DNA of 33,102 bases. Source: a virus. Below the pieces are notes generated by a model, which saw nothing but the letters and a program-made list of their open reading frames with translations, was not told the DNA's origin and ran no database searches. Below are positions 3,815 through 27,282 of the stretch, piece after piece (the first letter of the stretch is position 1; each line of letters starts with the position of its first letter). The stretch covers positions 1 through 33,102 of the IMG/VR virus record IMGVR_UViG_3300044646_001371; one strand, 5' to 3'. The translations under genes were made by a program, and so were the position numbers.

Positions 3815-3815
3815 T

Positions 3816-5954: not shown

Positions 5955-5988
5955 TTTATTAAAAAAATTACAACTTTTTAAATAACCA

Positions 5989-5998
5989 ATGTTAAATA
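5989..5998 (+). promoter_or_regulatory. TGTTAAA element before the scaffold gene
   Basis: ATGTTAAATA lies 19 bases before the start at 6018, with a CTTTTT run about 9 bases upstream. It belongs to a set of similar elements in gaps between gene groups; see the finding on this motif. Confidence 0.45.
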
Positions 5999-6017
5999 AC
6001 TAAATAACAAATTTATT

Positions 6018-6749: not shown

Positions 6750-6772
6750 AAATATTTTAAAAACAAGGTAAA

Positions 6773-7738: not shown

Positions 7739-7751
7739 TAAAAAAACTAAT

Positions 7752-7780
7752 GGGGTGGGATAATACTCACCCCTATTTTA
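7752..7780 (+). terminator. Terminator-like hairpin after the capsid gene
   Basis: GGGGTGGG (7752-7759) pairs with CTCACCCC (7766-7773) with one G-U pair and a 6-base loop, followed by TATTTT. The short T tract suggests partial termination. Confidence 0.65.
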
Positions 7781-7802
7781 AAAATTTTAAACAATAACAG
7801 AT

Positions 7803-8348
7803 ATGTCTTGTAATTTATCAGCTGGAAGAAACGAAGTTTGTAAAGATAGTATCGGCGGCTTGGCTGGCGTTTACTTCTTAAACTTTACGACTGGTTCTTT
7901 CACTAAAAACGGAGCTGGTGAAGTAACTGCATTCCCTTCAGGAAGTACAGTATACTATTACCAATTAAAAGGAACAAGTGCATATACTGAAACTGTTAAC
8001 TCATCTCGTGATAACGGAACAACTTTCTTTACGCAAGAATTAGTTCTTAATTTGAAAAAGTTAACAAACGAAATGACTACCCAATTAAAGCTTATGGCTT
8101 ATGGTAGACCTCAAATCGTTGTTCACACAATGAACGGAGATGCTTTATTAGTAGGTGAACAAGAGGGTGCAGATGTAACTGCAGGTACAATTCAGACAGG
8201 TGCAGCAATGGGTGACCTTTACGGATACTCAATTACTTTCACAGGTATGGAGAAGTTACCAGCGGCTTTCATTAGTGGCTCTACAACAGCAAATCCTTTC
8301 GCAGGATTGGGTGCAAATCCAACTGTTGTTTACGGAACTAATAGCTAA
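7803..8348 (+). CDS. Virion structural protein, candidate tail tube
   Basis: 181 residues. The N-terminus MSCNLSAGRNEVCKDSIGG is followed by beta strands, and the segment LLVGEQEGADVTAGTIQTG...GYSITFTGME resembles a family in Bacteroidetes prophages with the look of tail-tube subunits (two long beta hairpins, about 150-200 residues). It lies between two terminators, so it may form its own transcript, as expected for a protein needed in many copies. A capsid decoration protein is the alternative. The tail-tube call is an inference from size, strand pattern and abundance signals. Confidence 0.5.
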   Translation: MSCNLSAGRNEVCKDSIGGLAGVYFLNFTTGSFTKNGAGEVTAFPSGSTVYYYQLKGTSAYTETVNSSRDNGTTFFTQELVLNLKKLTNEMTTQLKLMAYGRPQIVVHTMNGDALLVGEQEGADVTAGTIQTGAAMGDLYGYSITFTGMEKLPAAFISGSTTANPFAGLGANPTVVYGTNS

Positions 8349-8375
8349 TCAGTATATTCACAAATATATTTAAAG

Positions 8376-8406
8376 ACCCTTTCAGAAATGGAAGGGTTTT
8401 TTATTT
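8376..8406 (+). terminator. Rho-independent terminator
   Basis: ACCCTTTC (8376-8383) pairs with GGAAGGGT (8390-8397) across a 6-base loop, followed directly by TTTTTATTT. This is one of the clearest terminators in the window and ends the capsid/tail-tube unit. Confidence 0.85.
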
Positions 8407-8429
8407 GCCAACTATTTTTACTTTTTAGG

Positions 8430-8439
8430 ATGTTAAATA
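8430..8439 (+). promoter_or_regulatory. TGTTAAA element between terminator and next gene
   Basis: ATGTTAAATA just downstream of the terminator at 8376, with ATTTTT about 10 bases upstream. Its place after a terminator is what a new promoter would need. Confidence 0.5.
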
Positions 8440-8466
8440 TAGAAGAACATAAACTATTACGAGATA

Positions 8467-8829
8467 ATGCTTACCTATTTTATATCAGGCAGTAACGGAT
8501 ACACAATTAGAACGAGTCAAACTACCTCTAATGCATTTACAATGTCATTACAAGATATGTTAACTCAAGTGAATTCTACTGCTTCAATCGTATCCCAATC
8601 ATACAACCAATGTGAAAGCATGGCTTCGTTTACTGCAAGTATAAGTGGAGCATATGTTGGGCAAGAGTTCAGAGCAACATTAACAAATGGTGTTTCTGAA
8701 TTATGGAATGGTAGTATTCAAATATTTGGTTCACAATCAGTATCTAAACCTGAATACATCAACCAAATACCAATCAACTCTGGCTCAATATCAGCGGATA
8801 GCAGTAACGAATATATTATAATGAACTAA
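8467..8829 (+). CDS. Small structural protein of unknown function, upstream of portal
   Basis: 120 residues, Ser/Thr/Asn-rich, predicted mainly beta (YTIRTSQTTSNAFTMSLQDML, GQEFRATLTNG, ELWNGSIQIFG) and ending in a short NEYIIMN tail. The look is of a small Ig-like or beta-sandwich virion protein. Similar short genes occur near connector genes in Bacteroidetes phages, but I cannot name the family. It ends one base before the portal start, so the two are probably translated together. Confidence 0.6.
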   Translation: MLTYFISGSNGYTIRTSQTTSNAFTMSLQDMLTQVNSTASIVSQSYNQCESMASFTASISGAYVGQEFRATLTNGVSELWNGSIQIFGSQSVSKPEYINQIPINSGSISADSSNEYIIMN

Positions 8830-8830
8830 T

Positions 8831-10132
8831 ATGAAGAAAGAAGTAAATTTCAATGTTTTCAATGTAAGCGGTAACAACTCTTTGCCAGTAGTTACTGAAG
8901 ATACGAGAACAAGATATGGATGGATTCCATTTGGCATTAATGGACACGATGATTTCTTTGATGCAGTTAATATTGCATACAATCAATCAACAACTAATGC
9001 AGCCTGTATAGAAGGTATTGCAGATTTAATATTTGGTAAAGGTATCTACTCAAAGAATGAGGCGTTTAATCCTATCCTACAAAAGATACTACCGCAAGAG
9101 GATGTTAAAAGAGCAGCATTCGATTTAAAATTGTTTGGTAATGCTGCATTCCAAGTTTATTGGAACGATGACCATACGAAGATAATTAAGTTTTATCACG
9201 TGCCTGTTCAAACACTTCGTGCTGAAAAGATATATGATAATCCTCGTATTGAGAACTACTACTATTGTGTAGATTGGAACGACCAAAGAAAAGTAAGAGA
9301 TAAGAAAAAGATTCCTGCTTTTGAAACATCATCAGAGAAGATGGAAATACTTTGGGTTAAGAATTATACTCCTAATCTTTATTACTATTCCCTACCTGAT
9401 TGGATTTCAGCATTTCAGTATTCAATTGTAGAAGCTGAATTAAGTAACTTACACACAAACAATATCTTAAATGGTTTCTTACCAATGGTAATGTTGAATA
9501 TGAATAGTGGTATTCCAGCACCTGAAGAAAGACAAACTATTGAAGATTTATTATACGCTAAATTTACAGGCACTAATAACGCAGGTAAGTTTATGTTATC
9601 ATTCAATGATGACCCTGCTACTAAACCAACTATCGATGTAATTCAAATCGATAATCTGCATGAGAAGTTTAGTTATGTAGCAGAATACGCACAAGATAGA
9701 ATATTAGTTGCACATAGAATTACTTCACCTCTTTTATTTGGTATTAGAACTGCTAACAACGGATTCTCTTCTCAATCGGAGGAAATGAAAACCGCATTTA
9801 GTATCTTACAAACAATGACAATTGCACCATTCCAAAACGTAATCTTAAATATTTTAGATTATGCTATGACTTGTGGTGGATACGATAACGCAGAATTATA
9901 CTTTGAGCAATTAACTCCATTAGTAATCTTATCACAACAAGCTGAAGAAACAGGTCAAACTGTTGAACAAATTGAAGAAGATACAAACGATGCTATGGAA
10001 AATCCTGCAGCTACCGAAGATACGGGTGATGCAGACCCGCAAGATATTGCACCAGATGAACCAATCGAAAGATTTGAGTATGGTTTAAGTGGAGCATTTT
10101 TTAAAAAAGAATACACAACTGAAAAAATATAA
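8831..10132 (+). CDS. Portal protein
   Basis: 433 residues, the usual portal length. Features typical of the HK97/PBSX-type portal family are the N-terminal region with YNQSTTNAACIEGIADLIFGKG (about 50-71, interrupted here only for description), a central FTGTNNAGKFML segment (about 244-255) and a SPLLFGI...GFSSQSEEM segment (about 299-318) followed by long helices. The acidic C-terminus (about 370-410) is probably flexible. Twelve copies would form the ring at the capsid vertex through which DNA is packaged by the terminase. The gene follows the capsid gene rather than the terminase, an unusual order. Confidence 0.85.
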   Translation: MKKEVNFNVFNVSGNNSLPVVTEDTRTRYGWIPFGINGHDDFFDAVNIAYNQSTTNAACIEGIADLIFGKGIYSKNEAFNPILQKILPQEDVKRAAFDLKLFGNAAFQVYWNDDHTKIIKFYHVPVQTLRAEKIYDNPRIENYYYCVDWNDQRKVRDKKKIPAFETSSEKMEILWVKNYTPNLYYYSLPDWISAFQYSIVEAELSNLHTNNILNGFLPMVMLNMNSGIPAPEERQTIEDLLYAKFTGTNNAGKFMLSFNDDPATKPTIDVIQIDNLHEKFSYVAEYAQDRILVAHRITSPLLFGIRTANNGFSSQSEEMKTAFSILQTMTIAPFQNVILNILDYAMTCGGYDNAELYFEQLTPLVILSQQAEETGQTVEQIEEDTNDAMENPAATEDTGDADPQDIAPDEPIERFEYGLSGAFFKKEYTTEKI

Positions 10133-10135
10133 GAT

Positions 10136-10648
10136 ATGGCAACCGCATTATTTATTACGAGAAACGACATAATTAAAAATACTCCTTTACAGGGAGCTAT
10201 TGATGCAGATGCGTTGTTACCATTTATGCATACTGCACAGGTAAAATACTTAAAGAATCTTTTAGGTACTGTATTATACGATTATTTGAGTGCACAAATT
10301 GAAACTCAAACTCCATTTACTGGCAGATATGCTGAATTGATGACTGACCACGTTAAACCAACCCTTATTTGGTATGCGTGTGTAGAATATATTCCTTTCA
10401 GTTCTATACAATTCAAATCTAATGGTGCTGTGAAGCAACAGAGTGAGCAAGGCGTCGCTCCATCTAAATCGGAGATAGATTACCTTCAAGCGCAAGCAAG
10501 AGCAAATGCTGACTACTATGCGTTGAGATTACAAAACTTTTGTATTTCATATTCGCAAGATATTCCACAATACTTACAAAGTGTTGGAAATCAAACACAA
10601 ATTTACCCAGACCAAACGAATCAATATTTTGGTGGTATTCAATTATAA
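10136..10648 (+). CDS. Head-tail connector (DUF6712-like)
   Basis: 170 residues, mainly helical. The pattern LFITRNDIIKNTPLQG...DADALLPFMHTAQ...YLKNLLG at the N-terminus and a C-terminal Tyr/Gln-rich tail match a family encoded right after portals in Bacteroidetes phages, which I recall as DUF6712 and which is thought to be an adaptor under the portal ring. The position, three bases after the portal gene, agrees. The specific family name is from memory; the connector role is from context. Confidence 0.6.
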   Translation: MATALFITRNDIIKNTPLQGAIDADALLPFMHTAQVKYLKNLLGTVLYDYLSAQIETQTPFTGRYAELMTDHVKPTLIWYACVEYIPFSSIQFKSNGAVKQQSEQGVAPSKSEIDYLQAQARANADYYALRLQNFCISYSQDIPQYLQSVGNQTQIYPDQTNQYFGGIQL

Positions 10649-10654
10649 TAAACT

Positions 10655-11200
10655 ATGAGCTACTTACAATATAATCAGAAAGTAAACTATACATTGTATT
10701 ACAATGCTTTAGATTATTTTGAAACTATAATGACTAATCATCCACAAATCGCTAAAGTAACAACTGGCGATATTACTGAAGTTGATGAAAGAGAGTTTCC
10801 TATGTATCCATTAGGTAATGTGAACATATTGAGTAGCACGATATCTGATTCTACAACTCGTCACGAAATACAATTAGTAATTGCTGACAAGATTAAGAAT
10901 AAAGATAACGAATCAAATCCTATTACAAATGAACAAACGATTCCGTTTTATGGAGTTGATGATACAGTTGATATTCTTGCTAACACTTTGGCAATTATCA
11001 ATGACCTTACTTCTTTTACACAATATTCAGTAGGGGCATTCGATATAGATGGTGAAATAGTATGTGAACCATTTATGGAAAGATTCAACAATGGATTAGC
11101 AGGACATGCAGCTACATTTACATTAGTAACACATAACGATAGACCTCGTTGTTTATTTAATTTGTTACCATCTGGCTCATATCCTAATCCTACTTGCTAA
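10655..11200 (+). CDS. Neck protein, candidate tail terminator / head completion
   Basis: 181 residues of mixed alpha/beta. Between the connector and the HK97-gp10-like gene is where tail-terminator or head-completion proteins are usually encoded. The C-terminal part (ERFNNGLAGHAATFTLVT, then NDRPRCLF and a final Cys) resembles a family seen at this place in related phages. No catalytic motif is visible. Its stop overlaps the next ATG by one base (TAATG), so translation is coupled. Confidence 0.5.
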   Translation: MSYLQYNQKVNYTLYYNALDYFETIMTNHPQIAKVTTGDITEVDEREFPMYPLGNVNILSSTISDSTTRHEIQLVIADKIKNKDNESNPITNEQTIPFYGVDDTVDILANTLAIINDLTSFTQYSVGAFDIDGEIVCEPFMERFNNGLAGHAATFTLVTHNDRPRCLFNLLPSGSYPNPTC

Positions 11201-11595
11201 TGGCTTCATCAAAAATACAATTACCTTTAAAGAACGTTGCAAAGCAGATACGAAATGTAGCATCTGCTTTAGCACCACGTAAAACGGGCAATCTTCGTAA
11301 TGTATTACGTTCATATAATACGCCCGATAGAATGGTTAAATTTGGAAAGAATGGTTCAGCAAATATTACGTTTTTCTTTGCGCCTCCTGGAGCTACTTAT
11401 GGTAAATACTGGAACAAACCATACGGAAGTGGTAATGGTACAACTGCAAAGATTAAGAGTAGATATCCACAACACTTCGACTACGCTGATAAAGCATATA
11501 AAGACCAGACTGTTAAGAAGTTAATTAAGGATTATACTAAAGCATTAGGTAAGCAAGTAGCAACTGAATTAAGAGAAGCAGTAAGAGCAAAGTAA
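11200..11595 (+). CDS. HK97-gp10-like neck / tail completion protein
   Basis: 131 residues from the ATG at 11200. An in-frame TTG six bases upstream is less likely. The N-terminal helix followed by ALAPRKTGNLRNVLRSY is the hallmark of the HK97-gp10-like family (basic helix, then KTGxLR). A Gly-rich beta region (FFFAPPGATYGKYWN) and C-terminal basic helices follow. Such proteins sit at the head-tail interface. The start overlaps the stop of the preceding gene. Confidence 0.7.
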   Translation: MASSKIQLPLKNVAKQIRNVASALAPRKTGNLRNVLRSYNTPDRMVKFGKNGSANITFFFAPPGATYGKYWNKPYGSGNGTTAKIKSRYPQHFDYADKAYKDQTVKKLIKDYTKALGKQVATELREAVRAK

Positions 11596-11620
11596 CCATC
11601 ACTTACTTTTTTAAAAACAA

Positions 11621-11629
11621 TGGTTAAAG
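11621..11629 (+). promoter_or_regulatory. TGTTAAA-like element before the distal tail genes
   Basis: TGGTTAAAG, a one-base variant, 17 bases before the start at 11647, with CTTTTTT about 8 bases upstream. Confidence 0.35.
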
Positions 11630-11646
11630 TCATAAAGGAAATATAG

Positions 11647-12813
11647 ATGTCTTTAAGTATAGTACAAACTCCAGCAACGTGTTCATTAGCACAATCACCA
11701 ATTATATTTTCCGTAGTGGAAAGTACAACTGCTACCGTCTTACAGGATGGTTTTCAATATTTGTGCGATTTGTATTATTGGAAAGGAACTCCAAGCAATT
11801 CAGGCTCGGTAGATTACATATTATCAAAATATCCTAACACATCTTTACATGGTATTTTTGATTTAAACAGAATTATCAATTCAACACTTACTGATTTAGC
11901 ACAAGCTAACCAATCAAACGTAATATACTTTGCGGGAGATTTCTATTGGCAGTATCCATCAGGAAGTACATATGTAACAGGTTCGCATGTAAAATCTGAT
12001 GTGTATAAAGCATTAGATGGATATTCAATATTCCAAGAACCAATCGGACAAGCTATATTTAATAAAACACCACATTGGCCTTTGATGACTGATGGACCAG
12101 CAACACAATCTGCATTCATTACAAATGAAGGAGTGGCGAGTGTATATGTTGGTACAACGGGTGGTGGAACTGCTCCTACAAAGATAGTTTATACATCTAA
12201 TTTGGGAAGTGCGGACTATACTGTGACAGGTAATACAAATACATCAGGTCAGGTTGCACAATATCCAATAGGACCAGCAGAAAGTGGATTCCCATTATCG
12301 ACTAGTGGATTAACTTATTTTACTACACAAGCATATAATGGTAGTACACCAATAGGAACAAAGATAACTTATAATATTGTTTGTACTCAAAAGTATCCAA
12401 ACATTCGTATCAAATGGAAAAATAGATACGGACAATTTGATTGGTTCAATTTCAATATGATAAATAGACAAGGATTCAATACTGAAAGAAGAACTTATCA
12501 ACCACAATTAGGAAGTTGGCAAGCATCTACATTATCATACAACAACTATGATAGTGCAACTCTAAACTATATTACGGATTCTACACAAACTCTTTCAGTT
12601 CAATCTGACTGGGTTGATGAAGCATACAACGATATATTCAAAGAATTATTAGTTGCTGATGAAATATATTGGATATACGATGAAAGTACAGGAGATTTAA
12701 GACCTATCACTATATCAACTGATTCTATCACATTTAAGACAGGAGTAGTTGATAAGGTAATTCAATACGGATTCGACTTTAAGTGGGGACAAAATTATAA
12801 ATTGATTATCTAA
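11647..12813 (+). CDS. Distal tail / minor tail protein
   Basis: 388 residues. The N-terminal half contains FDLNRIINSTLTDLAQ and IYFAGDFYWQYPSGS, then a Gly/Ser/Thr-rich insertion (about 165-240). The segment YPNIRIKWKNRYGQFDWFNF (about 251-270) is a pattern I associate with minor tail proteins of Bacteroidetes phages. The C-terminus (EIYWIYDESTGDLRPI, FDFKWGQNYKLII) is beta-rich. It sits at the head of the baseplate genes and shares one base with the next gene, which fits a Dit-like adaptor, although the exact role is inferred. Confidence 0.55.
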   Translation: MSLSIVQTPATCSLAQSPIIFSVVESTTATVLQDGFQYLCDLYYWKGTPSNSGSVDYILSKYPNTSLHGIFDLNRIINSTLTDLAQANQSNVIYFAGDFYWQYPSGSTYVTGSHVKSDVYKALDGYSIFQEPIGQAIFNKTPHWPLMTDGPATQSAFITNEGVASVYVGTTGGGTAPTKIVYTSNLGSADYTVTGNTNTSGQVAQYPIGPAESGFPLSTSGLTYFTTQAYNGSTPIGTKITYNIVCTQKYPNIRIKWKNRYGQFDWFNFNMINRQGFNTERRTYQPQLGSWQASTLSYNNYDSATLNYITDSTQTLSVQSDWVDEAYNDIFKELLVADEIYWIYDESTGDLRPITISTDSITFKTGVVDKVIQYGFDFKWGQNYKLII

Positions 12814-14753
12814 TGGGAGTAACGAGTACACAAGGTTTTGTATTTAAACTGATAGCAAACGGAACTCAATTAGACTTGTTTGATGATGAAGATATCTTAA
12901 TATCAGATAACGTAACAGGTCTATTTGATATTGGTGTGCTACCATCAGATTTTACTCGTCAAATTACTGTACCCGGCACAAAGAAGAATAACGCTTTCTT
13001 TGAGCACGTTTACGATATATCGGTTGTTAACCCATACCTTTTTGCAACGAACACAAAAGTTCCTTGCTATTTGGATTTTGATGGTATCTATTTATCAGAT
13101 GGATACTTACAATTAAACAAAGTAAATGTTCTTGCTAATAAGTTCATTGAGAGCTATGAGATAACTATCTTCGGTGGACTATCTTCATTTGCAAGAGATA
13201 TCAATAGAAATTTCCTAACCGACTTATCTTCTCTTTCACAATACAATCATACTGCATCCTACGAAGCTATTTCAGCAAGTTGGCAAGGTAATCTTTTCAA
13301 TGGCGATATAGTTTATCCTCTTGCAGATTATGGTAGTGGATATCAATATACACAAGGTAGTTTACAAACATTTGGAATGAATACCTTTGATGGTGCTTTG
13401 ACTGTACAAAACTTTAAACCTGCTATACGAGCTAAAGCAGTATTAGATGCAATATTTGAAGAAGCAGGATACACATACACATCATCATTTTTGAATTCAG
13501 GTGTATTGGATGATGTATATATGATTTGCAACTACGCACTTAAATATCCTGAATTTACAGGTGTTGATTTAGAAACCTATGGTAAAATAAAAGTAGGTGC
13601 TATTTCAGGTAGTGGAATGACAGACGTTCAATTACCATCAAATACTTTTGTAACATTACCTTGGTATAATACATTAGTAGATGCGCAAGGCTTTTATAAT
13701 AATGGTGCATATAGAATAGATAAGAGAACTAATTTAGAAGGTATTCTAAACCTTAATGTAAACGTAAGTTGCTCGGTAAATAATATGCCGGGTACGTTTA
13801 GTGCAAATGGTACCTGGCAATTACAAATGGTTGAAACAGGCAGTTCTACTGCATATGGATTAACTGCTATACAATCTTATATTGTATTCTTTGACCAATT
13901 ACAACAAAGTAGAACGGGTGGTATAAACACTACATACGAATTACAAACACAATTTAAATTGTATGATATACCCGCTGGTAACTATTACTTTCAGGTAAAA
14001 CAAAGACCTAATTTTGCATCACCAACGGTTCAACCAACGGTAATAATGGACCCAGGTGAAACAAATAAATCTTATATAGAAATTAAGCAAGTAAACCAAG
14101 CAGCTGATGGTAGAATTATGGATATACCATCTAATATGCCATATGGTACTAATGGAATTAAGCAAATTGATTTTATATTAGGTTTGCAAAAGAAATTCAA
14201 TCTAATCATTTATCCAAATAAGACAAGAACAAATGAATTCATTATTGAAACATTTAATGATTGGTATAAAAGAGGTGAAGTAAAAGATTTTAATAAATAC
14301 ATTAATTTAGATAAACGAATTGAGGTAATTCCTGCAAACAACCTTGCAGTAAATAAACTTAATTTTGGAGATACATTGGATAACGATTATATCTCTCAAC
14401 AATTCAATAAAGAAGCAAATAGAGAATATGGTAAATCATATTATATAGATACAACAAACTTCTTCTCACAAGGAGAGTTTAATGTTAAAACAACGTTTGC
14501 TTCTGACCCATTAATTAGAATACCAGGTACAGGTTTATCGGGTAGTGTTGGTGGTATTACACCGCCTCTACCTACATGCGCAGTATATACTGTAGGACCA
14601 GTATTTACGGGTGGATTTACTTATTGGATTAATTGCGATGGAACTAATCAATCTACTTATATTGATTATGGACAAACAATTAATATAGGATGTGCACAAA
14701 TCGGTTCAGTATCAGCTAACGGCCCTGTAACTTATATAACTTCATGCGAATAA
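12813..14753 (+). CDS. Tail hub / baseplate protein, N-terminal portion
   Basis: 646 residues. Residues about 25-75 contain EDILISDNVTGLFDIGVLPS and DFTRQITVPGTKKNNAFF, a conserved opening of the large hub-like tail proteins of Bacteroidetes phages. A middle region (about 440-520) with QKKFNLIIYPNKTRTNEFII and DFNKYINLDKRIEVIP also fits that family. The last ~60 residues form a Cys-containing module (CAVYTVGPVF... to TSCE) unlike the rest. In related phages I would expect the protein to continue, and the expected remainder seems to be encoded in the next gene, one base away. See the finding on a split hub. Confidence 0.6.
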   Translation: MGVTSTQGFVFKLIANGTQLDLFDDEDILISDNVTGLFDIGVLPSDFTRQITVPGTKKNNAFFEHVYDISVVNPYLFATNTKVPCYLDFDGIYLSDGYLQLNKVNVLANKFIESYEITIFGGLSSFARDINRNFLTDLSSLSQYNHTASYEAISASWQGNLFNGDIVYPLADYGSGYQYTQGSLQTFGMNTFDGALTVQNFKPAIRAKAVLDAIFEEAGYTYTSSFLNSGVLDDVYMICNYALKYPEFTGVDLETYGKIKVGAISGSGMTDVQLPSNTFVTLPWYNTLVDAQGFYNNGAYRIDKRTNLEGILNLNVNVSCSVNNMPGTFSANGTWQLQMVETGSSTAYGLTAIQSYIVFFDQLQQSRTGGINTTYELQTQFKLYDIPAGNYYFQVKQRPNFASPTVQPTVIMDPGETNKSYIEIKQVNQAADGRIMDIPSNMPYGTNGIKQIDFILGLQKKFNLIIYPNKTRTNEFIIETFNDWYKRGEVKDFNKYINLDKRIEVIPANNLAVNKLNFGDTLDNDYISQQFNKEANREYGKSYYIDTTNFFSQGEFNVKTTFASDPLIRIPGTGLSGSVGGITPPLPTCAVYTVGPVFTGGFTYWINCDGTNQSTYIDYGQTINIGCAQIGSVSANGPVTYITSCE

Positions 14754-14754
14754 T

Positions 14755-17109
14755 ATGGCTCAGATAATACCAATCAAAATACCTACTTATATATCAGCAG
14801 CAGATTTTGCTCCTGCTAGGGTATTACCACGTTTATTATATTATAACGGATTGGTTGAGTGTGAAAATTTCTATATAGAAAGTGGCTCGCTTACAAGGTC
14901 AGGTGTGGTTAAAGAAGAAACCGCATTTCCATATTTTGATAACTACAATGTAGTAACAGGAAGTTTTCCGAGTGCAGGTTCTGATTCACTTTTATTTAAT
15001 AATGAAGGAGCTGCATATGGTGCTTTACCAACTGGCAGTTTATATACAAAGTATTGGGAAACATATATAAATTTATTATATAATCCAACTACGAGATTAT
15101 TGAATTGTGATGCAATAATTCCATTAGCTGATTATTTCAATATGGAATTGAATGATATAGTAGAGTTCAGAGGAAACTACTATCATCTTCGTGCAATCAA
15201 TGATTACAATTTAAAAAATGGTGAATGTAAGATTCAGTTATTAGGCCCAATATTAGAAGATGCATTACAACTTGCTAACCCAGGTTGTAACTTTGGATTT
15301 ATATTAGAGCAAGTAGCAGGTACAACAACTACCACTACAACAACAGCTGCTCCTACTACGACTACTACCACTACTACGGTAGCACCAACTACGACTACAA
15401 CAACTGCTGGTGGAACTACGACTACAACTACGGGCGGACCAACTACTACAACTACTACGTTTAGTAACAACCCTTGTAATTGTGTTGAGATTAATCTAAC
15501 ATCAGAAGGTGGTGAAGTTGCGACATTCAACTGTTATGGACAGAATGAGAATTATGTTTATATGACAGGTGGTACTAAATACTTATGTGCAGCTGTAATA
15601 GGTGGATTATTGCAAGTATCAATTGTATCAGGAACAGGAACCTTCTCACCTATTGGTAATTGTAAGACTGGAGCATGTCCTCCGGCAACTACGACTACAA
15701 CTACGACTACTGCAGCACCTACTACTACTACGACTAGTACAACAACTACTACATTAGGTCCGACTATATTCAGAGCAGCTAACTGCCAGGATATTTTCGA
15801 CTTTAATACATACCAAGCGTTTGTAACATCTTCACTACAAGTTGGTGATGTATTACAAGATGCTTTTGGAACTTGCTACTCAATTTTAAACTTTGATGGT
15901 GAAGTGCCAGTAGGAACATTAACATATGTTGGAGGCTCAGGAAGTTGTGGACAGGCACCTTGTGTTACTACAACTACAACCGCAGCACCATTCTGTAATA
16001 CTTGGGAAGTAAGTAACGCAACAGGCGCAGGATACTACATCAAATACAAATATTGTGGAGATACGACATTCTCTTACCCAGAAATACCTGCATCTTCTAC
16101 GAGAACATTCTGTGTTCAAAATAATCAGATATTCAACGCATTTGGTGCACCATTAACATTTACTAATTTAGGTATAACTTGCTCCGCTACGACTACTACA
16201 ACTACGACTACCGCAGCACCTACAACTACAACTACTACGACTAGAGCACCTTATTGTTCTATTTGGACAGCTGAAAATGCATTTGGAGCTGGATATACAA
16301 TCAGATACAAATATTGTGGTTCAGTTGATAATACGTTTGTAGAAGTTCCACCATTTACTACTATTAGTTTATGTGTACAAAGTGGTGATATATCTAATTT
16401 AGGTAATCCAATTGTATTAACTGAAAGTAGTGCAAGTTGTATAGCAACGACTACAACAACAACAACAACGGCTGCACCGACTACGACAACCACAACTACA
16501 AGAGCACCTTATTGTTCGTTCTGGACTGCAAGTAACGCATTTGGAGCTGGATACAATATTCAATACACTTATTGTGGAGCAACAGGTTCGACATTTGTAG
16601 AAGTTCCTGCTAACACATCAATTATACTTTGTGTTCAATCAGGTCAAATTAGTAATTTAGGTAATCCAATCTTATTAACTGAAGATAGTGGAAGTTGTAT
16701 AGCAACAACTACAACTACTACGTTGGCTCCTACGACTACTACAACTACATTGCCAGTAGGATGTTTCATCTACGATGTAACTAACAACGGAGCAGGTTCT
16801 GCATTCTTCGATTACCAATATTGTAATGGTGGATATATCCGTGAAGATTTAGCAGGTGGTGGAGCATCGACAAGTGTTTGTGTGTTGAATGGTAATATCA
16901 GTTCTTCATACGCACCAATGGTAATCACTTTCACAGGTGTTCCGTGTGTAACATCAACTACGACTACAACTTCTACAACTACAACGACTACTTTACCTCC
17001 GTTTAGTAATCCTTGGACTGCAGATGCTTGGTTTGATACATCAGGTTTAAGTTTCGAAGTTGAATACTATAATACAAATAATTCATTCACATCATCAATA
17101 ATAAGTTAA
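14755..17109 (+). CDS. Hub C-terminal-like domain fused to a mucin-like array of Cys modules
   Basis: 784 residues. Residues 1-189 are a folded domain (ARVLPRLLYYNGLVECENFY, YWETYINLLYNPTTRLLNCD, IPLADYFNMELNDIVEFRG, YYHLRAINDYNLKNGECKIQ) that looks like the missing C-terminal part of the preceding hub gene. From residue 190 onward seven Thr-rich tracts separate small domains of about 60-70 residues. Three or four of these are copies of one four-Cys module (C-x3-W-T-x-N-A-F-G-A-G-Y...). The result is a bead-on-a-string rod reaching out of the baseplate. Role in adhesion or host-surface contact is inferred. Confidence 0.65.
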   Translation: MAQIIPIKIPTYISAADFAPARVLPRLLYYNGLVECENFYIESGSLTRSGVVKEETAFPYFDNYNVVTGSFPSAGSDSLLFNNEGAAYGALPTGSLYTKYWETYINLLYNPTTRLLNCDAIIPLADYFNMELNDIVEFRGNYYHLRAINDYNLKNGECKIQLLGPILEDALQLANPGCNFGFILEQVAGTTTTTTTTAAPTTTTTTTTVAPTTTTTTAGGTTTTTTGGPTTTTTTFSNNPCNCVEINLTSEGGEVATFNCYGQNENYVYMTGGTKYLCAAVIGGLLQVSIVSGTGTFSPIGNCKTGACPPATTTTTTTTAAPTTTTTSTTTTTLGPTIFRAANCQDIFDFNTYQAFVTSSLQVGDVLQDAFGTCYSILNFDGEVPVGTLTYVGGSGSCGQAPCVTTTTTAAPFCNTWEVSNATGAGYYIKYKYCGDTTFSYPEIPASSTRTFCVQNNQIFNAFGAPLTFTNLGITCSATTTTTTTTAAPTTTTTTTRAPYCSIWTAENAFGAGYTIRYKYCGSVDNTFVEVPPFTTISLCVQSGDISNLGNPIVLTESSASCIATTTTTTTTAAPTTTTTTTRAPYCSFWTASNAFGAGYNIQYTYCGATGSTFVEVPANTSIILCVQSGQISNLGNPILLTEDSGSCIATTTTTTLAPTTTTTTLPVGCFIYDVTNNGAGSAFFDYQYCNGGYIREDLAGGGASTSVCVLNGNISSSYAPMVITFTGVPCVTSTTTTTSTTTTTTLPPFSNPWTADAWFDTSGLSFEVEYYNTNNSFTSSIIS
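15322..15459 (+). repeat. Thr-rich tract 4
   Basis: Residues 190-235 of the protein at 14755: Thr runs broken by AAP, VAP, AGG and GGP. It begins the mucin-like part. Confidence 0.9.
15688..15753 (+). repeat. Thr-rich tract 5
   Basis: TTTTTTTTAAPTTTTT followed by STTTTT, between two Cys-containing domains. Confidence 0.9.
15967..15981 (+). repeat. Short Thr tract 6
   Basis: Only five Thr codons before AAP and the first four-Cys module. Confidence 0.85.
15982..16182 (+). repeat. Four-Cys module, copy A
   Basis: About 67 residues from AAPFCNTW to the fourth Cys. Shared pattern with other copies: C-x3-W near the start, GAGY, YKYCG, a Cys in the TFCVQ segment and a last Cys. This copy is the most diverged of the W-containing ones. 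Confidence 0.8.
16189..16242 (+). repeat. Thr-rich tract 7
   Basis: TTTTTTTTAAPTTTTTTT between module copies A and B. Confidence 0.9.
16243..16440 (+). repeat. Four-Cys module, copy B
   Basis: RAPYCSIWTAENAFGAGYTI at the start, ending at SSASC. It is closely related to copy C at DNA level too, which points to recent tandem duplication of module plus linker. Confidence 0.85.
16447..16500 (+). repeat. Thr-rich tract 8
   Basis: Same amino-acid pattern as the tract at 16189, but with different Thr codons at many positions. Confidence 0.9.
16501..16698 (+). repeat. Four-Cys module, copy C
   Basis: RAPYCSFWTASNAFGAGYNI at the start, ending at DSGSC; nearest relative is copy B. Confidence 0.85.
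16705..16749 (+). repeat. Thr-rich tract 9
   Basis: TTTTTTLAPTTTTTT before a diverged module (16750-16947, starting LPVGCFIYDV) that keeps four Cys but lacks the Trp. Confidence 0.9.
16951..16992 (+). repeat. Thr-rich tract 10
   Basis: TSTTTTTSTTTTTT, followed by a last ~39-residue domain. Confidence 0.9.
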
Positions 17110-17110
17110 T

Positions 17111-18349
17111 ATGGCATTGCAGAAATTAATAGGAGGACCTGATTGGGATGTTGTAACGAATCCAGACTCGGCTAGATATGCTGATTTTCACTACTTTATT
17201 TTGTCAGGAAGTACTGAAAGAAGTAATCCGTGGAATTCACCATCAACACCAATAGCAAAGGTTTTAAACGTAAGTAATGTAACCGCAAATTCGGTTGTAG
17301 CAAACTACGTCTCTTCCTCTGGCGAATTAACAAATGTAATATTAACTTCCGGCTCAACTGCACAAATTACATCACAAACTATCCCATTGGGTTTAGATAA
17401 TACCGCATGGTTAAGTGCGAGTATCGTTTCGGACTTTACGGGTAGTGTAACTGCAAGACCTACGGGAAGTAGATGGTTTGAATTAGAATCTATTAGAAGT
17501 ATTTCACAAGATACTTTTGTATATACTATTGCTGATGGGGCAACTACAATTACGAGAACTAACACAGGTCAACCTTCCGTTGGTTCATTAAGATATAGAT
17601 GTAGTAGAACAATACCTTATGTTGATAATGGATGGTGGATTATAAGAGATTTATATGATTGTTCAGGTGGAACTACTACTACAACAACAACTACCACAAC
17701 GACTACTACGACTACATTAGCTCCTACAACAACTACAACTACTGCAGCTCAATTCTGTAATGTTTGGACTGCAAGTAACGCATTTGGTGCAGGATATACA
17801 ATTAAGGTTAAGTATTGTGGTGATACAACATATTCATTCCCAACTGTTCCACCAAATAGTTCAATCTATGTGTGTGTTCAGAATGATGATATTACAAATA
17901 ATGGTAATCCAATTACGTTGACAAGTTCATCAGTTGCATGTTCTGGTAGTATAATAACTACTACAACAACAACAGGTGCACCTACAACTACTACGACTAG
18001 TACTACGACTACTACGACTAGTACAACAACGACTACCACAACAGCAGCACCGACAACAACGACTACTGCAGCACCAACAACAACAACAACTTCTACTACT
18101 ACTACGACTACATTAGCATCACAAAAGTATTATGTTGAAAGTTGCGCTCAAGAAGATGGAGGACCTGTTTTATCTGGTATAATTGAAATTACAAACGCAC
18201 CTTTATTAACTTCTAAAATAATTAAAGTTAATACACCTGTTGTAGGTTATTCTTGCTTCCAAGTATTCAGTACTTCAACAGGAACTATATCATTGGGAAC
18301 TCGTAGTGTAACTAACATTTATACTGATTGTGTGGATTGTACGGATTAA
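17111..18349 (+). CDS. Mucin-like tail protein with one four-Cys module
   Basis: 412 residues. Residues 1-187 form a folded N-terminal part (PDWDVVTNPDSARYADFHYF, then beta-rich segments and RCSRTIPYVDNGWWIIRDLY) that I do not recognise. A Thr tract (188-211), a four-Cys module (about 212-277) closely matching those in the previous protein, and a longer Thr tract (283-334) follow. The C-terminal ~78 residues contain paired Cys and end in YTDCVDCTD, a module seen at the ends of other Bacteroidetes phage tail proteins. It starts one base after the previous stop and is probably part of the same tail-tip assembly. Confidence 0.65.
   Translation: MALQKLIGGPDWDVVTNPDSARYADFHYFILSGSTERSNPWNSPSTPIAKVLNVSNVTANSVVANYVSSSGELTNVILTSGSTAQITSQTIPLGLDNTAWLSASIVSDFTGSVTARPTGSRWFELESIRSISQDTFVYTIADGATTITRTNTGQPSVGSLRYRCSRTIPYVDNGWWIIRDLYDCSGGTTTTTTTTTTTTTTTLAPTTTTTTAAQFCNVWTASNAFGAGYTIKVKYCGDTTYSFPTVPPNSSIYVCVQNDDITNNGNPITLTSSSVACSGSIITTTTTTGAPTTTTTSTTTTTTSTTTTTTTAAPTTTTTAAPTTTTTSTTTTTTLASQKYYVESCAQEDGGPVLSGIIEITNAPLLTSKIIKVNTPVVGYSCFQVFSTSTGTISLGTRSVTNIYTDCVDCTD
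17672..17743 (+). repeat. Thr-rich tract 11
   Basis: Fifteen Thr in a row, then LAP and six more, ahead of the four-Cys module. Confidence 0.9.
17744..17941 (+). repeat. Four-Cys module, copy in the second mucin-like protein
   Basis: AAQFCNVWTASNAFGAGYTI at the start, ending at SSVAC. It is closer to copies B and C of the preceding gene than those are to copy A. Confidence 0.85.
17957..18112 (+). repeat. Thr-rich tract 12 (longest)
   Basis: 52 codons of Thr runs broken by GAP, AAP and single Ser. Confidence 0.9.
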
Positions 18350-18371
18350 TAACTTATTAATAAAAAACTAA

Positions 18372-18380
18372 TTGTTAAAC
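18372..18380 (+). promoter_or_regulatory. TGTTAAA element before the gene at 18385
   Basis: TTGTTAAAC ends 4 bases before the ATG. No T run is present; the upstream CTTATTAATAAAAAACTA resembles the leader of the element at 22076. Confidence 0.35.
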
Positions 18381-18384
18381 ATAT

Positions 18385-19068
18385 ATGGCTGATGTATATT
18401 TTGTAGTAACTTTAACTAACGCTGAAGCAGGTTCAGGACCAAGCTATGATGCATTCTATTCAAATGATTGTGTTACCTATTCGCCTGCTATACCTGCTAC
18501 TGTGTTTCTACCATCAGTCGGTTCTCAATCTACGATAACAATACCAGATACTGCACAATGTGTAAGATTGACAAATATAAATTCAAATTGTAATAATAGT
18601 GTAACTTCATCAGTAACACCAACTACTACAACAACAACTACTGCAGCGCCTGTAACTACAACTACTACTGCGGGTGGAACTACTACAACTACAATACCTC
18701 CAACTACAACAACTACTACTCAAGTTGTAACATTCAATTGGAATTTTACCGAAGGTAATGGTGCAAGTGGTGAAATGATTTTATATATAAATGGTAGTGT
18801 AGTTGAAAATAGATTTAATACATCAAACGGAACATACTATCTTCTTCCAGGTGATACTATAAGTTGTGAAGTTATAACTACTGGTTGTACTTCACCTAAT
18901 GGAAAAGCTAACTCATATAGTATAGGTAGTAAGCCAGTATTAACTGATGCAGCTTGTTCTAATGGAAGTAGTAATATATTTACTCCTACATATACTGTGG
19001 TTAGTGGCGATTTAGGAACTACAATAACTTTATCAATGTATTCTATTTGTGATAGTGCCTGTGTGTAA
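18385..19068 (+). CDS. Mucin-like tail protein, two Cys-containing domains joined by a Thr tract
   Basis: 227 residues. The N-terminal ~78 residues are a beta-rich domain with Cys pairs (YDAFYSNDCVTYSP, DTAQCVRLTN, NSNCNNS). A Thr tract (80-112, broken by AAP, AGG and IPP) leads to a C-terminal ~115-residue domain with several Cys (SCEVITTGC, DAACSNG, YSICDSACV). No known enzyme motif is seen. It is the last tail-tip gene before the sugar-modification cassette. Function is inferred as a surface-exposed fibre component. Confidence 0.6.
   Translation: MADVYFVVTLTNAEAGSGPSYDAFYSNDCVTYSPAIPATVFLPSVGSQSTITIPDTAQCVRLTNINSNCNNSVTSSVTPTTTTTTTAAPVTTTTTAGGTTTTTIPPTTTTTTQVVTFNWNFTEGNGASGEMILYINGSVVENRFNTSNGTYYLLPGDTISCEVITTGCTSPNGKANSYSIGSKPVLTDAACSNGSSNIFTPTYTVVSGDLGTTITLSMYSICDSACV
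18622..18720 (+). repeat. Thr-rich tract 13
   Basis: 33 residues of Thr runs broken by AAPV, AGG and IPP; mixed ACN codons. Confidence 0.9.
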
Positions 19069-19085
19069 AACAAATTCATTTTGGG

Positions 19086-19095
19086 TTGTTAAATA
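19086..19095 (+). promoter_or_regulatory. TGTTAAA element before the glyco-modification cassette
   Basis: TTGTTAAATA, 16 bases before the ATG at 19112, with a TTTT run just upstream. If it is a promoter, it would give the cassette its own transcript. Confidence 0.4.
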
Positions 19096-19111
19096 GTAAA
19101 GACAATTTAAA

Positions 19112-20077
19112 ATGGAAAATGGCATTAAAATAGTTATGAAGAATTTAAGATTCGTATGTGCACAGCCGGCAACACTTTATTACGCTTGGCAAGTAGAAGT
19201 AATGTTAAACAATTTCATTGAGATGGGTGTTAACCCTAACAATGTAGATATTGTTTGTTGGAAACAAAATGGTGTAGTACCTGAAGAATGGAGTAAGTTA
19301 GCATCTGGCTATCCCGCTCGATTCTTTTTTTATGATGACACGAGAGAAACCAAACATTACATTTCATCAATCAGACCCAACATCCTTAAACAACATTGGT
19401 TAGCTCATCCTTATTTAAAAGATGAAGCAATCTTCTATCACGATTCTGATATCATATTTTCCAAACCTATTTCGGAATGGATTAGTGAAGATATTAGAGA
19501 TGATGAACAATGGTATGGTTCAGACACCCGTTGGTATATAGCACATTCTTACATAGTTGGTAAAGGTCAGCAGATAATCGATAAGATGTGTGATATTATG
19601 GATTTGCCAGAATCGTTGATTATAGACAACGAAATGAACGCAATCGGTGCGCAGTACTTAATGAAGAATGTAGATTATGAATATTGGAATAGAGTAGAAA
19701 TCGATTCAGAATTACTATTCAGACAAATTACTGATTTAAACAATCAAATAAAAGCAGAAACTCCTTCTTATCACGAACTACAAATATGGTGTGCAGATAT
19801 GTGGGCTGTATTGTGGGGAGCATGGAGAAGAGGATGGAAAACAAATTGTTTGCCAGAATTTGATTTTAGTTGGGGAACATCTACCGAAGATGATTTTTAC
19901 AAAATGAATATAATGCATAACGCTGGTGTAACATCACCAATACAAGGACTTTTTTATAAAGCTGAATTTATGAATTCACTTCCTTACAATGCTGAATTAA
20001 ATGTAAATGATAAGAGCGCAAGTAAAAAATATTGGGAATGGATTCAAAGAACTGCACAAAAAAGTAAATTGTTATGA
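19112..20077 (+). CDS. GT-A type glycosyltransferase
   Basis: 321 residues. The segment EAIFYHDSDIIFSKPISEW (about 105-123) contains the D-x-D motif (Asp111-Ser-Asp113) that binds the metal and nucleotide-sugar phosphate in GT-A transferases. FVCAQPATLYYAWQVEVML near the N-terminus fits the nucleotide-binding half, and MHNAGV with a later YWEWI segment the acceptor half. There is no signal peptide or membrane segment, so it acts in the cytoplasm. An internal ATG at 19136 (MKNLRF) is an alternative start. Its stop overlaps the next start (ATGA). Donor and acceptor are unknown; the adjacent Thr-rich tail proteins are a plausible acceptor. Confidence 0.7.
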   Translation: MENGIKIVMKNLRFVCAQPATLYYAWQVEVMLNNFIEMGVNPNNVDIVCWKQNGVVPEEWSKLASGYPARFFFYDDTRETKHYISSIRPNILKQHWLAHPYLKDEAIFYHDSDIIFSKPISEWISEDIRDDEQWYGSDTRWYIAHSYIVGKGQQIIDKMCDIMDLPESLIIDNEMNAIGAQYLMKNVDYEYWNRVEIDSELLFRQITDLNNQIKAETPSYHELQIWCADMWAVLWGAWRRGWKTNCLPEFDFSWGTSTEDDFYKMNIMHNAGVTSPIQGLFYKAEFMNSLPYNAELNVNDKSASKKYWEWIQRTAQKSKLL

Positions 20078-25831: not shown

Positions 25832-25971
25832 TGGAAACGAGATTACTACAATTAGAATTAAGTATGGATGCCGCTAAAAGAGACATCGATGAACTTAAAG
25901 AATTATTAATTAATTTAACCTTTATGGTTAATGATTTAAGTGATAAAATAAACTTATTATCAAATGGCTAA
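25831..25971 (+). CDS. 46-residue coiled-coil protein
   Basis: The ATG overlaps the preceding stop by one base (TAATG). The sequence METRLLQLELSMDAAKRDID followed by ELKELLINLTFM and NDLSDKINLL shows a continuous heptad-like pattern of Leu/Ile/Met, so a short coiled coil. Its last 8 bases overlap the next gene. It resembles spanin- or scaffold-sized helical proteins only in size; function unknown. Confidence 0.6.
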   Translation: METRLLQLELSMDAAKRDIDELKELLINLTFMVNDLSDKINLLSNG

Positions 25972-26092
25972 ATCCAAATCATCAGGCGGTACTACAAAAG
26001 TATCATTCGGAAAAAAGAGTACAGGTAAAGCGAGAAAGAGTTATGGTCCCAAAGACCAAAAACCAAAAAGATATAGAGGCCAAGGCCGTTAA
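25964..26092 (+). CDS. 42-residue basic protein (KSYGPKDQK...RYRGQGR)
   Basis: Very basic and Gly/Ser-rich with no hydrophobic core: it starts MAKSKSSGGTTKVSFGKKST and ends KPKRYRGQGR. I recall near-identical tiny proteins at this place in Bacteroidetes phage genomes, so it is likely real and conserved. Nucleic-acid binding or packing inside the capsid is a guess from charge. It is the last gene before a strong terminator. Confidence 0.6.
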   Translation: MAKSKSSGGTTKVSFGKKSTGKARKSYGPKDQKPKRYRGQGR

Positions 26093-26108
26093 TCAGAGAG
26101 TAAACAAA

Positions 26109-26140
26109 GAAGGGTAGCCATAAAACAGCTACCCTTTCTT
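26109..26140 (+). terminator. Rho-independent terminator ending the structural genes
   Basis: AAGGGTAGC (26110-26118) pairs perfectly with GCTACCCTT (26128-26136) across a 9-base loop, followed by TCTT. It lies 17 bases after the last structural gene. A weaker inverted repeat follows at 26170-26176/26197-26203 (AAAACCT/AGGTTTT). Confidence 0.85.
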
Positions 26141-26220
26141 CATTTCAAAATTAAATACTATGGACAGTTAAAACCTCAACAATACAAATGTACGAAAGGT
26201 TTTTCAATTTTCCAAATTTA

Positions 26221-26264
26221 TTGCAAAAAGAAACCCACCCTGAAATGGCACTAACAGGGTGGGT
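26221..26264 (-). terminator. Minus-strand terminator
   Basis: ACCCACCCTG (26233-26242) and CAGGGTGGGT (26255-26264) form a perfect 10-bp stem with a 12-base loop. Only on the minus strand is the hairpin followed by a T-rich tract (TTTCTTTTTGC, 26232-26222), so it terminates leftward transcripts. Confidence 0.8.
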
Positions 26265-26344
26265 GTATATAAAAAGGTAATAGGACACTGATTATAAGTT
26301 ACGTGTATAAAGAATCAGTATTGATTAAGTCCTATTCTCTAATC
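26221..26344 (-). ncRNA. Candidate ~115-nt structured small RNA (minus strand)
   Basis: A minus-strand promoter at 26350-26381 and a minus-strand terminator at 26221-26264 bracket about 115 bases with no open frame. Read on the minus strand, AATAGGAC pairs with GTCCTATT (8 bp) and, inside it, ACTGATT pairs with AATCAGT (7 bp), separated on one side by a 9-base bulge (TTAATCAAT). The apical loop is about 20 bases. A U-rich linker leads to the terminator stem. A long hairpin with a one-sided internal loop recalls 6S-type RNAs, but size and sequence do not match one I know. It is the only convincing minus-strand transcription unit. Confidence 0.65.
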
Positions 26345-26349
26345 TTTAA

Positions 26350-26381
26350 CAAAGATACTTAAAAAAATCTACATTTCCAAA
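26350..26381 (-). promoter_or_regulatory. Bacteroidetes-type promoter, minus strand
   Basis: On the minus strand: TTTG (-33 box, 26381-26378), 20 bases, then TATCTTTG (-7 box, 26357-26350), matching TTTG-N19-21-TAnnTTTG. The start would fall near 26341-26344, just before the candidate small RNA stem. Confidence 0.75.
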
Positions 26382-26476
26382 TAAAAAATATTTTCATAAT
26401 TTCTAAAGAATATCGGCGCTTTCGAAAATTTGCTTATACTTATAATAAATACTACAAATTAGTTTAGTAACATAAA

Positions 26477-26508
26477 TTTGTTAATTTAAAATATTTGTTG
26501 TATATTTG
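26477..26508 (+). promoter_or_regulatory. Bacteroidetes-type promoter, plus strand
   Basis: TTTG (26477-26480), 20 bases, then TATATTTG (26501-26508), the same architecture and spacing as the divergent minus-strand promoter about 100 bases away. Transcription would start near 26514-26516 and run through the structured RNA toward the HNH gene and the small-gene block. Confidence 0.8.
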
Positions 26509-26513
26509 AAACA

Positions 26514-26850
26514 TCAACTCTAAAAATGGCACATCTCTAAAACAAATCCCCTAAAAGTAAATCGACCTGTATTCAAGCTACGATGATTCAGTTGAACGGT
26601 AGTAGTTTAGACATCGGATTAGTAATTGCACTACTGAAATAATGTAGAAACATAGCGATGAGGTTTTCTCCGGTAGGTCAAAAGAAATAGTTAATAAGAG
26701 ATTGACGAGTTGGTATAGGTTTTTGTACAGACACCCTTTACTATACTGATAATGACTCAACTACGAAGTACTATTTTGAAAAAATGCAGAAAGCTCCAAA
26801 GGGTGTTCTGGCTACATTCAGTAGTGTAAAATTATTTTAAAAAAAGTTAG
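26514..26850 (+). ncRNA. Candidate ~310-nt structured RNA (plus strand)
   Basis: There is no credible open frame on either strand, yet several long pairings are visible. ACTACTGA-AATA-ATGTAG (26630-26647) pairs with CTACAT-TCAGTAGT (26812-26825), 14 bp around one 4-base bulge. CAGACACCCTTT (26728-26739) pairs with AAAGGGTGTTCTG (26798-26810), 12 bp with one bulged base. GTATAG (26713-26718) can pair with CTATAC (26741-26746), forming a pseudoknot with the previous stem. GACCT (26564-26568) can pair with AGGTC (26675-26679) and CATCG (26612-26616) with CGATG (26656-26660). AGTAGT (26601-26606) competes for ACTACT (26630-26635). It follows directly after a strong promoter and precedes an HNH endonuclease gene. 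I do not recognise the class. Confidence 0.6.
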
Positions 26851-26916
26851 TTAAAACAGCTTTTTCGAAAAATTAAATGATATATATAAGTATAGTAAAA
26901 TAAAAACAATTATAAT

Positions 26917-27282
26917 ATGGCACATGAAATCTGGAAACCAATAGAAGGTTTCTCACTCTATCAAATCTCAAATACAGGAAAAGTAAGAACTTGTCAGAAA
27001 GGCAGGGGCAGAGTTAATTGGTATGAACTTAAATTAAGAAAGAATCATAGAAGTGGTTACATATATGTTGGATTATATGATAGCATCAGCAGAAAATGGT
27101 TTAGAGTTCATAGATTAGTTTATCAGCACTATACAGGTTGCATACCTGATACATTAGTAGTTGACCACATTGATAATGATAAACAAAACAATCACGTTAA
27201 CAACTTACAATTACTTACTAAATCAGAAAACGCTAAAAAATATCATAAATTAAAAAAACAAATCAATGAGCAAGAGTATTAA
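26917..27282 (+). CDS. NUMOD4-HNH endonuclease
   Basis: 121 residues. The N-terminal IWKPIEGFSLYQISNTGKVR is a NUMOD4 DNA-recognition motif. The HNH core is seen as FRVHRLVYQHY (His65) and LVVDHIDNDKQNNHVNNLQL (His84, Asn87 or Asn91), followed by a basic C-terminal tail. Such enzymes are homing-type nickases or, near terminase genes, packaging helpers. No intron or split gene is visible around it, so it is free-standing. The upstream structured RNA is part of its probable transcript. Its last 17 bases overlap the next gene. Confidence 0.85.
   Translation: MAHEIWKPIEGFSLYQISNTGKVRTCQKGRGRVNWYELKLRKNHRSGYIYVGLYDSISRKWFRVHRLVYQHYTGCIPDTLVVDHIDNDKQNNHVNNLQLLTKSENAKKYHKLKKQINEQEY

Follow-up and report, generated by a model that had tools for sequence, protein, structure and literature searches.

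The minus strand of a 33,102-base virus record (hereafter the window, meaning the whole stretch of DNA analysed) very probably carries a small RNA gene, one of a conserved RNA family distributed across many related phages of Bacteroidetes. We assign a probability of roughly three in four to the reading that the gene encodes a phage sRNA whose terminator loop pairs at the start region of an endonuclease message and represses its translation. The sRNA would be transcribed from its own promoter and ended by its own terminator. Its terminator loop would then pair with the translation start of the message for the endonuclease, which is of NUMOD4-HNH type in the window and, among relatives, of either HNH or zinc-ribbon GIY-YIG type. 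Pairing there would block ribosome entry, resulting in repression rather than activation. Computation supplied four elements of this reading: an RNA that is conserved, stems that covary, endonuclease genes that occur alongside it, and loop and start-site sequences that change in step.

The gene lies on the minus strand of a gap (approximately 26092-26917) that separates the end of the structural genes from the early operon, in a record with Bacteroidetes-type promoters. A promoter of this type, TTTG-N20-TATCTTTG (26350-26381, minus strand), precedes an sRNA gene of approximately 120 nt (26221-26343), for which the 5′ end was placed from the promoter position and the 3′ end from the T tract. 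The 5′ side of the first hairpin (26313-26336) comprises P1 (26336-26329), a 9-nt bulge TTAATCAAT (26328-26320) and P2 (26319-26313); on the 3′ side (26279-26293), P2′ (26293-26287) is followed directly by P1′ (26286-26279). P1 and P2 total 15 bp and the bulge is found on the 5′ side only. The intrinsic terminator (26233-26264) has a perfect 10-bp stem (26264-26255 with 26242-26233) enclosing a 12-nt loop, UUAGUGCCAUUU (26254-26243), which is the presumed seed and whose core is kept while the stems change. A T-rich tract (26221-26232) lies 3′ of the stem. An earlier sequence-only reading of this DNA had described the minus-strand promoter, bulged hairpin, 10-bp terminator and T-rich tract, and all are present where it placed them. 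Its statement that all other transcription runs on the plus strand was too strong, since a second minus-strand promoter-like sequence, TTTG-N20-TACATTTG, occurs at 26216-26185, just past the sRNA terminator, together with a terminator-like sequence at 26136-26110.

Similar promoters in three related loci (L083, L006 and L004) precede an apparent minus-strand reading frame starting near ATGGAAAATG or ATGAGTAC. The first of these loci, from a near-identical phage, is longer by approximately 700 bases in the interval from the end of the late operon to the sRNA terminator (L083 1118-1816 against window 26218-26223), likely through an insertion or replacement. Elsewhere in the window (197-20000), poly-threonine stretches (TTTTTTTTAAPTTTTTTT) are abundant in the structural proteins, joining repeated domains.

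Folding of 26221-26381 (minus strand) gave an energy of -36.6 kcal/mol (z -2.69), with 3 of 200 shuffled sequences folding as well. Fold energy by itself is only moderately unusual, and conservation was therefore needed to decide. A simple scan for sigma-70 promoters and terminators listed neither the sRNA promoter nor the sRNA terminator, because it is built for a different promoter type and accepts loops of no more than 8 nt. The pattern TTTG-N18-21-TANNTTW was present upstream of 29 of the 48 homologs examined, compared with 1.4 in shuffled sequences.

Relatives were fetched via two neighbouring proteins. Homologs were recognised by similarity and then by terminators possessing wholly different stems but a loop like TTAGTGCCATTT. 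The terminator palindrome was rejected as a sole search key, the 46 stretches that it returned being mostly unrelated terminators. A structural pattern search and an alignment (A5) of 20 distinct RNAs yielded three helices of 9, 7 and 9 pairs. Because the MAFFT alignments (A3 and A4) misaligned the stems, N was inserted at the variable loops before alignment, and A5 is consequently a guided alignment. Over 25 pairs and 20 homologs, 87.4% of cells were paired compared with 54.9% in shuffled alignments, and the covariation score was 0.84 compared with 0.226, a value as high being obtained in none of 500 shuffles. Changes on both sides were observed in 23 of the 25 pairs, and slid controls gave covariation scores of 0.13-0.22. 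All three helices covary in the 20 homologs, providing the compensatory changes in related phages by which it had been proposed that the hairpin be checked. The earlier interpretation of this stretch as a complete small RNA gene is thus backed by conservation and covariation, and a small RNA is very probably encoded here.

A covariance model (R1) was built on the 20 homologs, with the window copy included in the training set. As a training member, the window scored 85.6 bits at 26223-26340; non-training members scored 77.1 (L362), 76.2 (L374), 72.8 (L370) and 66.0 bits (L398). For 19 distinct rows reached via the HNH protein, 90.7% of cells were paired with a covariation score of 0.797, in an alignment that was fitted to the model and in which 3 of the 19 rows are also training sequences.

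Terminator stems vary freely within the family and the loop core is kept, usually as UGYCAU. The bulge of the first hairpin is near-fixed, reading UUAANNAAU (TTAANNAAT then RC) in 46 of 51 distinct RNAs. It might, speculatively, be a site of protein binding or of tertiary contact. The length of the hairpin, its internal unpaired region and its conserved bulge are also what might be expected of a 6S-like RNA that binds host RNA polymerase by imitating an open promoter, a role raised by the sequence-only reading. However, no Rfam 15 family reached its gathering score in the window or in nine related loci, and no 6S family appeared there at that score or among six matches up to E 5. Furthermore, the bulge is one-sided, 9 nt long and in its UUAANNAAU sequence unlike the host -7 element TANNTTTG, and polymerase binding would leave the covariation of loop and start site described below unexplained. 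The 6S-like reading was rejected after the Rfam scans and we regard it as barely credible.

A reordered version of the RNA was seen in L378 and L379 (upstream of a GIY-YIG gene), in L009 near 7032 and in L011 near 12722. The order in L378 and L379 is a hairpin with a GCCATTT loop, a hairpin whose loop TACAAATAAT resembles the bulge, and a separate terminator. A second seed may exist in L036 (near 12030) and L367 (near 1165), whose first hairpin has TGCCATTTT or TGCTATTTT in its apical loop.

The gene presumed to be regulated in the window (26917-27282, plus strand, start ATGGCAC) encodes a homing-type endonuclease with NUMOD4 (5.5e-12) and HNH_3 (8.8e-17) domains. NUMOD4 and HNH_3 also occur together in L028, and HNH_3 is found in L012, L342 and L058. 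The second type of neighbouring gene encodes a zinc-ribbon family with GIY-YIG features, including a match to I-TevI (1mk0) at E 0.0066. PHROGs assigned part of its members to endonuclease VII or homing endonuclease, and 2 of 12 to GIY-YIG homing endonuclease; Pfam returned no GIY-YIG match for this family. The presumed target genes thus appear to carry homing-endonuclease domains, whether HNH/NUMOD or with GIY-YIG features.

We assessed the association of the RNA with these genes using loci fetched via the endonucleases. Among 38 viral loci fetched via the GIY-YIG protein alone, R1 found the RNA in 29. Six of the nine loci lacking it begin no more than 41 nt before the match (L359, L361, L372, L380, L381 and L382), one (L356) lacks the RNA despite 740 nt of upstream sequence, and two (L378 and L379) hold only the reordered variant, with a AGCCAUUU or GUGCCAUUU loop. 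When 80 loci were fetched via the HNH protein of L012, L342 and L010, 19 of the 30 closest contained the RNA, and among the 11 without it several are truncated; R1 exceeded 18.2 bits in none of the 50 remote HNH loci. R1 gave no match in bacterial genomes, whether in 26 pattern loci or in six genomes, nor in 395 genomes of the phylum of G001, which were searched under stricter filters and had no positive control among them. R1 also found no RNA in Nonlabens phage P12024S (host Persicivirga), whose portal protein shares 36% identity with the window portal protein. Across 50,697 phage records, no match was obtained to the DNA of window 25900-27000 or to the GIY-YIG protein. One 62.6-kb record, IMGVR_UViG_3300043395_001957 (L005, L017 and L323), contains two separate matches to one protein; as the phage type is approximately 33 kb, it may represent two related genomes joined.

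The loop was compared with the start of the neighbouring gene. Reverse-complemented, the loop core reads ATGGCA, which is exactly how the gene that comes first after the RNA begins in many relatives. Start and loop variants were found in the combinations AUGGC/GCCAU, AUGAC/GUCAU, AUGGA/UCCAU and AUAGC/GCUAU. For TGCCAT loops, ATGGC was present in 11 of 12 start regions, the twelfth (L342) having ATGGT, which permits a G-U pair. ATGAC accompanied all 15 TGTCAT loops and the one CGTCAT loop, ATGGA the one TTCCAT loop and ATAGC all three TGCTAT loops. Thus, UGUCAU occurs with AUGACA in L012, L100 and L370, UUCCAU with AUGGAA in L042, and UGCUAU with AUAGCA in L046, L360 and L387, where the true start lies downstream of the paired site. 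The AUAGC variant is found in GIY-YIG (L046 and L360) and HNH (L387) cassettes alike. The flanks of the core track as well, UGCCAUCGGU occurring with ACCGAUGGCA (L362) and UGCCAUGUUU with AAACAUGGCA (L398).

Simple targeting of AUG codons by the loop was rejected, because in L046, L360 and L387 the loop pairs with AUAGCA and the true start lies further downstream. In five GIY-YIG loci (L046, L360, L370, L371 and L376) the paired site is located approximately 10 nt before the true start, and in several of them this site is an upstream AUG (ATGACA); in L046 and L360 the paired site is ATAGCA, matched by the loop.

For a quantitative comparison, loop strings and start codons were extracted manually, the duplicate L374 was dropped, 12 opposite-strand pairs were kept apart, and the reordered-variant loci (L009, L011, L378 and L379) were excluded from the loop-target pair counts. 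In the 32 distinct same-strand pairs, the mean longest Watson-Crick match was 8.38, compared with 6.29 when pairs were permuted, and the mean duplex energy was -11.07 compared with -7.71 kcal/mol; none of 20,000 permutations was as good by either measure. Match length gave the same outcome (0 of 20,000) within the GIY-YIG (18 pairs) or HNH (14 pairs) cassettes alone. Individual matches are short: those of at least 8 nt were present in 27 of 32 cognate pairs and, because few core types exist, also in 23% of non-cognate pairs. The cognate start region ranked first within its own locus in 14 of 32 cases, where 2.3 were expected. Ten of the 12 opposite-strand pairs share 6-10 nt, while L393 and L407 share only 4 nt and show no pairing.

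Mapped onto protein trees, the core of the loop has undergone at least 8 changes among the GIY-YIG proteins and 4 among the HNH proteins. Independent contrasts on well supported GIY-YIG branches ran in the expected direction in 3 of 3 cases (p 0.25); of two HNH pairs, typically one agreed and one was without difference, and none was opposed. These contrasts lack significance because too few independent ones are available. Taken together, the comparisons indicate that the seed is complementary to the target start region and is kept so by compensatory change. An antisense role, left equally open with decoy action by the sequence-only reading, is strongly supported in so far as it operates through the terminator loop, and is not supported for the bulged hairpin.

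A match between loop and start site might also be maintained at the level of DNA, with both places sharing a phage regulator site or a homing target and RNA pairing playing no part; such sites would presumably stay matched in the same manner. However, the shared part falls exactly in the loop of a freely varying terminator stem, is inverted relative to the message and extends over only 5-12 nt. Moreover, the G-U rescue in L342 makes sense for RNA only. We consider a DNA-level explanation very improbable.

The position of the RNA bears on a further alternative. In same-strand pairs (n = 32), the distance from the end of the loop to the downstream start codon is 85-132 nt in 30 cases and 807-861 nt in two. 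An RNA placed just upstream of a gene on the same strand could be a cis-acting leader of the endonuclease mRNA, an attenuator that switches between termination and read-through while its loop contacts the start site of the same molecule. Conversely, the window and 18 other homologs have the RNA on the minus strand, with the identified endonuclease genes there on the opposite strand. Even in the same-strand class, 29 of 32 pairs have a second promoter-like sequence after the sRNA terminator and ahead of the gene (relaxed pattern, without a shuffle control). An attenuator therefore appears improbable, and a separate sRNA acting through its terminator loop remains the preferred reading.

In the window, the RNA is of the opposite-strand type relative to the endonuclease gene. 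A divergent promoter, TTTG-N20-TATATTTG (26477-26508, plus strand), stands before a leader containing the candidate target AAATGGCAC (26524-26532, plus strand), 9 nt complementary to the sRNA loop, in which an ATG at 26526 opens a mini-ORF, MAHL. With -13.6 kcal/mol, this site ranked first of 39 window start regions. At 26917, the start of the endonuclease gene has a 7-nt match (-11.6 kcal/mol) and was tied in 5th-6th place among the same 39 regions. For the window start regions, the target prediction proposed alongside the sequence-only reading thus yielded a best site in the leader and a lower rank for the endonuclease start. In the relatives L196, L266 and L280, the place of the leader holds ATGGCACATATG or ATGGCACACATATG, running into or overlapping the start of the first gene. 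The early leader is most probably where the window RNA acts, and the family suggests an effect on the window endonuclease, either through the leader or direct. As the strongest window site is the leader AUG and the endonuclease start offers only 7 nt, the message hit here is less sure than the mechanism of the family.

A further interpretation shares this pairing mechanism and differs only in its biology: the sRNA may serve as the RNA antitoxin in a pair resembling type I toxin-antitoxin systems, shielding the cell or phage genome from an endonuclease toxin and making loss of the pair difficult. The usual site specificity of homing endonucleases counts against a toxin role, and we found no sign of the endonuclease toxicity that this interpretation presumes. 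Pairing of an RNA with the mRNA of the adjacent gene, expected of type I systems, is predicted in the same-strand class; in the window it amounts to only 7 nt. The base-pairing logic is nevertheless the same, the nuclease gene is adjacent, and the nuclease type is exchanged under the same loop. Precedents of antisense-controlled nuclease toxins, RalR/RalA and SymE/SymR, are described in a passage of PMC4147584. On balance, we consider a toxin-antitoxin pair unlikely. On a more far-reaching reading, which we hold to be less likely than not, regulation of the endonuclease by the terminator loop would form part of a modular antisense system. Here, a constant scaffold (with the UUAANNAAU bulge as the likely grip of an RNA-binding protein) would carry a re-programmable terminator-loop seed that tracks whichever homing endonuclease fills the cassette, even among unrelated nuclease folds. 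The RNA might then serve as a brake on the resident enzyme and as an immunity that silences the same endonuclease from a co-infecting phage.

RNA structure is a known means of limiting the translation of phage homing endonucleases. In the genes of T4-type phages (I-TevI, segB and mobE), hairpins that sequester the ribosome binding site restrain translation, as outlined in a section of PMC2988022. The RNA predicted here would have a similar effect; however, the T4-type hairpin acts in cis within a long transcript, whereas the present RNA appears to come from an sRNA gene of its own, complete with promoter and terminator, and to have a loop that follows its target. Closer in location is CfrI of cyanophage S-PM2, an antisense RNA at psbA and the F-CphI homing endonuclease (a passage of PMC12197685, citing Millard 2010). 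Like the RNA predicted here, CfrI is a phage antisense RNA beside a homing endonuclease gene, but it is linked to psbA, and that passage describes no family with a conserved scaffold and covarying loop.

Among the Bacteroidota, FopS and GibS of Bacteroides thetaiotaomicron pair with translation initiation regions and repress, as proven by compensatory mutants, and the FopS family is included in Rfam (sections of PMC11697453). The present sRNA is likewise predicted to pair at initiation regions. However, the FopS seed lies in a single-stranded 5′ part and its targets are mostly susC mRNAs, the FopS and GibS genes are bacterial, and we saw no relation in sequence or structure between them, so far as those sections describe them, and the phage sRNA. 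In SymE/SymR and RalR/RalA, a small antisense RNA controls the synthesis of a nuclease, as predicted here; SymR overlaps its target gene and RalA pairs inside the coding region and needs Hfq, and the passage cited above (PMC4147584) describes neither with the scaffold of the window RNA or a terminator-loop seed. A search of the open-access literature, with most subscription papers and all preprints outside its scope, found no dedicated sRNA family with a seed that follows the endonuclease start.

For most free-standing T4 homing endonucleases, translational control is not obvious and has yet to be addressed experimentally, according to a section of PMC2988022. In the Bacteroidetes phages studied here, a whole small RNA family appears to be dedicated to homing endonuclease genes, constituting a small, defined class of phage sRNA. 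Its many natural compensatory variants would make the base-pairing rule directly testable, and the near-invariant bulge may provide a bait for finding an RNA-binding protein.
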